DNA of 54,445 nucleotides from Peribacillus kribbensis DSM 17871 (GTDB lineage Bacteria > Bacillota > Bacilli > Bacillales > DSM-1321). Made by a program: the position numbers and the translations under genes. The notes under the pieces are model-generated. The model saw nothing but the letters and a program-made list of their open reading frames with translations, was not told the DNA's origin and made no database searches. The stretch is from positions 302,435-356,879 of the forward strand of contig NZ_KE387238.1 of NCBI RefSeq assembly GCF_000430765.1. The letters are read 5' to 3'. Shown piece after piece: positions 10,742 to 12,450 of the stretch (positions within the stretch are counted from its first letter, which is position 1; each line of letters begins with the position of its first letter).

Positions 10742-10773
10742 CAAAATAAAAACCCAGCGGGATTTCTGCTGGA
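10742..10773 (-). terminator. Terminator of the TIR-like gene pair
   Basis: Minus strand CCAGC-AGAAATCCC-GCTGG followed by GTTTTTATTTTG, 13 bases past the stop of the small gene at 10786. Confidence 0.75.
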
Positions 10774-10785
10774 TTCATATACCAT

Positions 10786-10971
10786 TTAAGCCCTGTTTAA
10801 AGATAAGCCCCTGTATTCAGCCTTGCGCTTATATACAACGGTCCCTTTTTCCTCTTCTCCCTGATTTGTGGAGACTACGGCCTTCATGCCGGAAACAGGC
10901 TCACCTATTTTATAATTCTGATTTTCAACTGCCGTTTTCTTCGTTCTAATTGATTTAGGAAGCCGTCTCAT
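10786..10971 (-). CDS. Small basic protein coupled to the TIR-like gene
   Basis: 61 residues, rich in Lys/Arg, with no recognised domain (MRRLPKSIRTKKTAVEN... at the N-terminus, GEPVSGMKAVVSTNQGEE in the middle). The ATG overlaps the stop of the TIR-like gene as ATGA and has its own strong GGAGGGGG site, so it is probably a real, coupled gene. It is followed directly by a terminator. The pairing suggests a partner or accessory of the TIR-like protein, but nothing in the sequence shows that. Confidence 0.6.
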   Translation of the reverse strand: MRRLPKSIRTKKTAVENQNYKIGEPVSGMKAVVSTNQGEEEKGTVVYKRKAEYRGLSLNRA

Positions 10972-11981
10972 ACTGAACCCCCTCCAAAAAGATAATTAAT
11001 TGTTCCCATTAAATTATGATTGGCCAGGAACAGCTTGTCCAATTCTTCGTCAGACAGTTCCTTTTTCCCAGAAATCGCCACTGTAATTAAAAGGGTACTG
11101 GCTATAGGATAGCATATAACATACGTTTCATCAAAATGGGAATCCTTTAGGAGCACCTGCTCTTCACTTCGGAGAAAAGAATCAATGACAAGGATATGAT
11201 CTTCTTCCCCTCTCTCCTCATTAATGGAAAAAGGGTAAAATTTCCCCCGCCCTTCATTACCGGCAATCTGCCTCAGTCCTTCTGTCCCATCTGCCTTCCA
11301 TACTCCGATTCCCTGTACAGTAAACTGATGCGGCGGTCTAAAGGCATTCCATAATGATTCGAAAAGATATTCGTACTTCTTCTCTGGATGGGCCAGCAGC
11401 CCTTTGGCCAGATTCCTCGTGAACCGGATTAATGCATAATTCTCCTGCAGCTCAAGCTCTGCATTTTCAATCAGGAGGGAAGGCTCCTCAAAGCAGCCTA
11501 ATTTTTGAATCTGACCTGCGATGACAGAGCAGGCCACATTAACGGCGGCATGATAATTTTGATCAGCCCTGTTTTCATATTTTAATACAGAAAGCCCGTC
11601 CAAGTCTGAGGGCAGATGGAATTTATCCACTTTCAGTCCATCCAGCTCTTCAGGAATTGATTCAGAAATTAAGTAAAAAACTCGTCCTCTTCTTAACTTT
11701 CCCCAAAACAATCCCATTTCAAACAGCGTGTTGTCACGGGTATTGACCGTAAGACTGCCGCGCATTTTCACGACATCGTCCGGCGAGAATATAAAAACGG
11801 CAAAATCGCTTTGATTCAATTGCTTTTCCAGGCTTTCCATCGTATAAGAATGGGCATTGAAAACACCCGTAAACCATGGAGTCACTTCCGCATAATACGC
11901 AAGGGCAGCCTGGACAGCCGTCGCATAATGCATCGATTCACTGGCAGAACCTATAAAAACCTTAGGCTTATTTTGATCCAT
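10968..11981 (-). CDS. TIR-like nucleotide-binding domain fused to GAF-like domain
   Basis: 337 residues. Residues 7-150 match the bacterial TIR-like domain of the CAP12/Pycsar-effector type (PF10137): KVFIGSASES (7-16), SDFAVFIFSPDDV (58-70), and TRDNTLFEMG (81-90) with Glu88 at the position of the NADase catalytic glutamate, then GLFWGKL. In this family the domain cleaves NAD+ when a C- or N-terminal sensor is triggered. Residues about 185-335 look like a GAF-type sensor (VQGIGVWKADG, FLRSEEQVLL, the final ELDKLFLANHNLMGTI helix), an uncertain reading. No nucleotide cyclase lies nearby. An overlapping small gene follows. Possible antiphage or NAD+-linked signalling role; inference. Confidence 0.75.
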   Translation of the reverse strand: MDQNKPKVFIGSASESMHYATAVQAALAYYAEVTPWFTGVFNAHSYTMESLEKQLNQSDFAVFIFSPDDVVKMRGSLTVNTRDNTLFEMGLFWGKLRRGRVFYLISESIPEELDGLKVDKFHLPSDLDGLSVLKYENRADQNYHAAVNVACSVIAGQIQKLGCFEEPSLLIENAELELQENYALIRFTRNLAKGLLAHPEKKYEYLFESLWNAFRPPHQFTVQGIGVWKADGTEGLRQIAGNEGRGKFYPFSINEERGEEDHILVIDSFLRSEEQVLLKDSHFDETYVICYPIASTLLITVAISGKKELSDEELDKLFLANHNLMGTINYLFGGGSV

Positions 11982-12062
11982 ACGTCCTCCGTAACTATCA
12001 GAATATTCACTATTATACCATTGTGTCTGAAAGTTTATAACAGGGGAGATGTACTATTTCCA

Positions 12063-12355
12063 TTAAAGATTCAGAAAAGCGTCTTCGGCATTGACTCGCT
12101 CCTTGATTACATGATTCTTATAAGGCCATTTTGAAATATCCTGCCATTCCTTTAGGTTTTGGCTTCCAAATGGTTCATTTTCGCTGCTCATTAAAGGAAG
12201 CAGTATATCCAGGCTTTTTTCTTCAATCTTTTTATCCAGCGGTGAAGATGAATCTGAATTTTTAAGCCCTTTCCCAAACCAATGACAAAAGGATGCCGAT
12301 GGGTTCTTTCCCAGATCTCACTCACTTTTCTCCTCATAGCCTCAGAATATTTCAT
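12063..12355 (-). pseudogene. tenA: tenA (thiaminase II) remnant
   Basis: Begins at an ATG after AAAGGAGG with MKYSEAMRRKVSEIWERTH and HPFVIGLGKG, which fits the N-terminus of TenA (aminopyrimidine aminohydrolase/thiaminase II). After about 31 codons the similarity ends and the frame stops at 12191. Adding one A in the AAAAA run near residue 31 would open a second frame (SSSPLDKKIEEK ... DAFLNL) ending at 12063, but that part does not resemble TenA. At most 40 of ~220 residues remain. It lies directly downstream of the TPP riboswitch and terminator at 12451-12620, as a working tenA would. I call it a decayed gene. Confidence 0.6.
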
Positions 12356-12450
12356 CTTTTCTCCTCCTTTAGGGTATTGCACCACCTTGCCATAAAAACA
12401 GCTAAAACCTTCGCGTAATCCAAAAGCTGCTTAATTTCGGCCTTTCATAC

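Follow-up and report, generated by a model that had tools for sequence, protein, structure and literature searches.

What does a bacterial TIR-type NADase respond to when no cyclase lies beside it, and what is the role of a very small gene that overlaps its stop codon? The question is raised by a two-gene locus on the reverse strand of the 54,445-nucleotide stretch of Peribacillus kribbensis DSM 17871 analysed here (the window). Its first gene (10968..11981, ATG start, TGA stop) encodes a 337-residue protein, termed here TIR-GAF after its two domains; the second (10786..10971) encodes 61 residues. To our knowledge, bacterial TIR-type NADases are so far triggered either by second messengers or by structural proteins of phages. 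The reading favoured here, to which we give a probability of roughly one half, is that a stand-alone NADase with a GAF sensor is controlled by a small GAF-binding subunit, and that an infection signal releases NAD+ depletion. If true, a stand-alone sensor architecture, comprising a GAF fold and a small protein, would be added to the TIR-type NADases, and bacterial immunity would include a GAF domain gated by a protein partner. The data presented below suggest that the two-gene unit is an uncharacterized, self-contained defence or self-shutdown switch.

Domains and transcription of the TIR-GAF gene

Residues 7-136 of the TIR-GAF protein (11574..11963, reverse strand) match the CAP12/PCTIR-type TIR family PF10137 (E 7.5e-27; 94.1 bits against a curated cut-off of 24.7). 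A preliminary description of the locus had proposed a CAP12-like TIR domain in this position, and had named a different N-terminal fold as the result that would refute it; the family match and the fold comparison both bear out the CAP12/PCTIR-type TIR. The catalytic position, which aligns to the TIR-STING structure 7un8, is occupied by Glu88 (codon 11718-11720, reverse strand). The residue is kept by 104 of the 105 distinct members with a full-length protein, a set from which large genes that were shorter than 900 nt or broken were excluded. The preliminary description was right to place a glutamate there and wrong only in its wording, as Glu88 replaces no catalytic residue. The N-terminal half is predicted to be a NADase of the TIR type.

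In the AlphaFold2 model a long linker helix, residues 167-197 (11391..11483, reverse strand), leads into a domain of residues ~199-337 (10971..11387, reverse strand) that fold comparison assigns to the GAF fold. The C-terminal half of the model aligns to GAF structures, while the alignment to 7un8 stops at model residue 216. The GAF-type, non-STING assignment that had been made from the raw sequence is thus upheld by the fold. Of the profile searches proposed earlier for both halves, the N-terminal one gave the PF10137 match, and the C-terminal one returned no Pfam GAF family match at E values up to 1; as modelled, the C-terminal half is a GAF fold outside the curated GAF sequence families. 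Within the domain Asn321 is invariant (105/105), Cys290 and Gly241 are each conserved in 103 of the 105 members, and position 228 is Trp, Tyr or Phe in all of them. A conserved Gly-Gly pair close to the C-terminus was set aside as a possible by-product of translation signals, because the same codons hold the embedded Shine-Dalgarno sequence of the small gene (GGAGG; 10981..10985, reverse strand).

An extended -10 promoter-like element, TGGTATAAT (12012..12020, reverse strand), begins 39 nt before the start codon of the TIR-GAF gene. Of 73 regions upstream of family members, that of the window included, 41 contain the pattern TGnTA(T/A/C)nnT, where mononucleotide shuffles predict 8.3, the regions being related to one another; the element itself is absent from the list of a stricter promoter scan. 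Behind the small gene lies a likely intrinsic terminator (10742..10775, reverse strand), consisting of a stem, a 9-nt loop and a T-run (fold -12.2 kcal/mol, z -1.98), which is absent from the list of the pattern scan. That scan identified a terminator-like site at 12488-12455, between the unit and the upstream genes, which, read from their translations, are presumably riboflavin genes. Given the promoter-like element, the upstream terminator-like site and the likely terminator after the small gene, the two genes look like a transcription unit of their own. Upstream of the module, a short ORF (12191-12385, reverse strand) bears a weak likeness to the beginning of TenA (PF03070, E 0.0093; 16.2 bits, where the cut-off is 22) and is followed by an unmatched 42-residue ORF (12063-12191, reverse strand). 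This is perhaps a decayed thiaminase gene, lying after the upstream terminator-like site and before the module.

The small gene and its probable link to the GAF domain

The start of the small gene overlaps the TIR-GAF stop codon by ATGA, and the GGAGG lies 9 nt before its ATG, confirming both the overlap and the separate ribosome-binding site of the preliminary description. That description had also named absence of the small gene beside homologues as evidence against it; a small ORF (47-105 aa) is present beside the stop in 105 of 105 distinct full-length members, the window included. An ORF of such size near the stop is also found for 193 of 657 control long ORFs. A start at exactly -4 is far more discriminating, being seen in 78 of the 105 members versus 28 of the 657 controls; for one member (L048) the only call of a small ORF was at +28. 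The small gene is under purifying selection: of 196 pairs 98 were usable, and all 98 gave a dN/dS below 1, with a median of 0.151. The median for the large gene is 0.086 (98 usable pairs of 196). In a copy carried by a Terribacillus plasmid the small gene is annotated with a RefSeq protein accession.

The C-termini of the small proteins share a motif that was recognized by eye. Many Paenibacillus have it as (I/V)GPSVEGxDKEYxKVxSGKVxxxKPSFA, Neobacillus has it as GKEESGKVxYKRKADY, and L125-L129 and L177 contain distant versions; five proteins lacking a simple motif pattern were retained in the counts of 105. Ahead of the last 30 residues both length and sequence vary, but this region is net positive in 102 of the 105. 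The window protein has no Pfam or PHROG family match, and among 69 small proteins there were weak family matches in one or two and a single weak PHROG match. Modelled alone, the small protein is mostly unstructured, with one hairpin (residues 29-34/40-45) at low confidence (pLDDT 59). No natural fusion of the large and small proteins was seen among the members.

Across the 105 rows, evolutionary distances between small proteins follow those of the GAF domain (Spearman 0.75) and the linker (0.74) more closely than those of the TIR domain (0.58); fast TIR columns of similar divergence give a rho of 0.61. The partial correlation between the GAF domain and the small protein, given the TIR domain, is 0.59, and that between the TIR domain and the small protein, given the GAF domain, is -0.08. 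The GAF > TIR order is kept when the divergent relative L129 is left out, and on thinning to 77 rows (GAF 0.80, TIR 0.64) or 46 rows (GAF 0.72, TIR 0.57). L129 carries an N-terminal DUF4062 domain (PF13271, E 4.2e-19) in place of the TIR domain; its C-terminal half matches the family profile (E 3.9e-8, an independent value) and is followed by a small ORF with the GPS motif. In the accessible part of a 2026 preprint, DUF4062 is reported as a TIR-like NADase of the antiphage system Swarozyc (PMC13174449). This one locus points to an exchange of effector on a conserved sensor core, with DUF4062 in the place of the TIR domain. As small-protein distances follow the GAF domain and linker over the TIR domain, and as L129 swaps the effector and keeps the GAF half and the small ORF, we infer that the small protein touches the GAF domain, presumably by physical binding.

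A proposed latch on the predicted NADase, and the alternatives

In the proposed mechanism the large protein would be the sensor-effector, in which an N-terminal TIR NADase is connected through a helical linker to a C-terminal GAF-fold sensor. The small protein would be a dedicated subunit whose conserved C-terminal hairpin docks onto the GAF domain, and whose basic, variable and probably disordered N-terminal tail may bind nucleic acids or anions. Translational coupling would deliver it at a matched dose. Bound to the GAF domain, the small protein would act as an inhibitory latch, holding the linker and TIR domains inactive until an infection signal removes, competes with or modifies it, or enters the GAF pocket. 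The TIR domains would then assemble and deplete NAD+, stopping both cell and phage. The function is probably abortive-infection-like, with a presumed antiphage action and phage as the putative trigger. We favour the inhibitory direction over the activating one at about 55:35.

The activating direction, which we regard as doubtful, would make the small protein a sensor adaptor: with its hairpin on the GAF domain, the basic tail would catch a phage protein, or nucleic acid that is damaged or of phage origin, and drive TIR assembly. The basic, variable region in 102 of 105 proteins is consistent with such a role, as are the low-confidence hairpin, expected of a part that folds on binding, the gene order, in which the large gene comes first and the small one is translationally coupled to it, and the fact that no full-length large gene (n=105) lacks the small ORF. 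An obligatory activator, however, would be needless once its effector is lost, and among the 13 loci in which the large gene is broken, the small gene still looks intact in 8 and does not in the other 5, a difference that is not significant. This tally excludes the contig-edge fragments L005/L007 and two weak fragments, and the 8 become 7 when the near-identical L082/L095 are counted once. The decay asymmetry was rejected as proof of antitoxin function: the large gene makes up ~85% of the length, so that seven of seven single breaks falling within it has a chance of ~0.3, no more than gene length predicts. One of the broken loci (L183), with an intact-looking small gene, lies beside a gene that by eye resembles those for peptide-binding proteins; the same kind of gene, likewise recognized by eye, flanks an intact copy in a second genome (L178).

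GAF domains commonly bind small ligands. They are counted, in the accessible part of an eLife article, among the nucleotide-binding domains of other conflict systems (PMC7159879). It is conceivable, at odds no better than those of the activator, that the TIR-GAF protein senses a small molecule, such as a nucleotide or a cyclic ADP-ribose-like compound, or redox state through the near-invariant Cys290, and that the small protein merely stabilizes it. The conservation of Cys290, Gly241 and the aromatic position 228 described above would suit a ligand pocket. The small protein, however, evolves with the GAF domain and is missing in none of the 105 members, and there is no conserved neighbour able to make a ligand. 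Over 78 loci (ORFs of at least 70 aa), every family besides the large and small genes is confined to 10 loci or fewer. In one genus in which the TIR-GAF gene is found in 56 of 75 genomes, 12 of the 56 carriers have a SMODS match and 44 do not, leading us to reject, for that genus, a SMODS cyclase acting in trans as a needed partner. Together, these neighbour and SMODS counts support the earlier view of the module as stand-alone. PADLOC was run on 60 of the 158 neighbour candidates, drawn from 21 of the 78 loci; it gave few matches, to be read with no background rate, and every matched family was represented by one protein only. The Terribacillus plasmid pDMT04 also carries, close to its copy of the module, a cluster (L146, 3040-6371) whose annotations name the ThiF family and prokaryotic E2 ligase family D; it may be an operon for ubiquitin-like conjugation.

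The distribution of the module bears on whether it serves defence at all. A scan of genomes from 84,980 species with the single protein as query, a search limited to close relatives, returned 75 loci, and the loci in the tree belong to Bacillaceae, Caryophanaceae and Paenibacillaceae. With a profile of the C-terminal half, matches were found in 13 of 397 genomes of the order, two broken copies among them, in 41 of 398 of the class and in 4 of 299 of the phylum, all four of the last lying in the same class. A wider profile raised the class count to 48 of 398, and every one of these counts takes in the genome of the window itself; the wider profile was built with L129 and other distant members, for which its E-values are circular. 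The two-gene unit recurs across many Bacilli, and the matches in the genome samples are all from Bacilli. It occupies the same place in the four genomes compared from the genus with 56 of 75 carriers, and five genomes of another genus share a different place. In a protein tree the TIR-GAF protein of the window clusters with rows from Perspicuibacillus and Neobacillus and away from the two same-genus rows L003/L004; L129 was excluded and near-identical rows thinned, and the tree drew long-branch warnings, with the window's protein in one such join. One copy of the large gene lies on a viral contig (L133); a tblastn search of 50,697 phage records gave no match. The tree grouping, the different sites across genera, and the plasmid and viral-contig copies are read as signs that the module moves horizontally.

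It is unlikely, somewhat more so than the two preceding alternatives, that the pair is a resident regulator of NAD+ turnover or development in Bacilli, outside defence. The near-core state in one genus is as compatible with a housekeeping or stress gene in residence as with a fixed defence, and synteny in the four genomes compared, low dN/dS values, the lack of a defence-island signal in the neighbours sampled and the restriction of genome-sample matches to Bacilli all agree with residence. Set against this are the patchy occurrence elsewhere, as in the 13 of 397 genomes of the order, the signs of horizontal movement, the plasmid copy, repeated decay, and the locus in which the effector is exchanged for a defence NADase domain; the sigma-A-like extended -10 speaks weakly against a sporulation gene. 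That the small ORF overlaps by chance or codes for no protein, as its shortness, the window protein's lack of a family match and the frequency of similarly sized ORFs near control stops might suggest, is highly improbable in view of the enriched -4 start, the dN/dS values below 1 in every usable pair, the common C-terminal motif and the RefSeq accession on the Terribacillus plasmid.

The inhibitory latch is the reading retained. A broader proposal is held more tentatively, at rather less than even odds: that Bacilli possess a so far undescribed immune switch made of two genes, whose GAF domain has a tiny basic protein, and no second messenger, as its regulatory ligand, and whose NADase effectors, CAP12-type TIR or DUF4062, are interchangeable on the same core of GAF domain and small protein.

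Comparison with known systems

Among TIR-type NADase modules, the TIR-GAF gene and its small partner make up a new variant, one whose sensor arrangement is so far unstudied. The literature matches listed (titles and abstract starts, with subscription journals mostly outside) contain no description of the protein or the small gene, and the phrases TIR-GAF and GAF-TIR, with their 'and' forms, were not found in the full-text literature searched, which likewise mostly excludes subscription journals.

An identity with CBASS Cap12 was rejected, as the NCBIfam equivalogs, with a cut-off of 450 bits, give scores of only 71.5 and 70.9. Cap12/TIR-STING of CBASS (SfSTING, 7un8) ends in STING, whereas the C-terminal domain of the TIR-GAF protein is a GAF fold, and the TIR-GAF operon differs from that of Cap12 in having no CD-NTase and an extra small gene. 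The earlier statement that no cyclase is encoded nearby is correct: the sole SMODS match of the genome lies ~151 kb away, beside its own SLATT_4, and the genome contains no match to the guanylate-cyclase family PF00211. That distant SMODS nucleotidyltransferase, with its SLATT_4 two-TM effector and an ORF that by eye resembles a tyrosine integrase (L184; G000:C2:155500-169500, outside the window), is a separate CBASS-like locus.

Pycsar was rejected on the absence of a PF00211 match from the genome. PycTIR (8jsj) resembles the module in its TIR domain (E 3.1e-28 with the family profile) but carries it at the C-terminus; in the TIR-GAF protein the TIR domain is N-terminal and the GAF-fold domain follows. 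The pairing of a candidate toxic enzyme with a small, partly disordered partner in a coupled operon also recalls type II toxin-antitoxin systems, from which the window module differs in that the large gene comes first and the small protein has no recognized domain.

SpbK of Bacillus subtilis is likewise an antiphage TIR NADase from a Bacillus; the accessible part of its report describes it with the phage protein YonE, and mentions neither GAF nor a small partner (PMC12847820). The link to Swarozyc runs through DUF4062, which is also the N-terminal domain of L129, whereas the window protein belongs to PF10137. The word GAF was not found in the main text of the Swarozyc preprint; as described in its accessible part, the auxiliary domain is HTH/winged and portal-binding (PMC13174449), in contrast to the GAF fold and small gene that accompany the TIR domain in the window.
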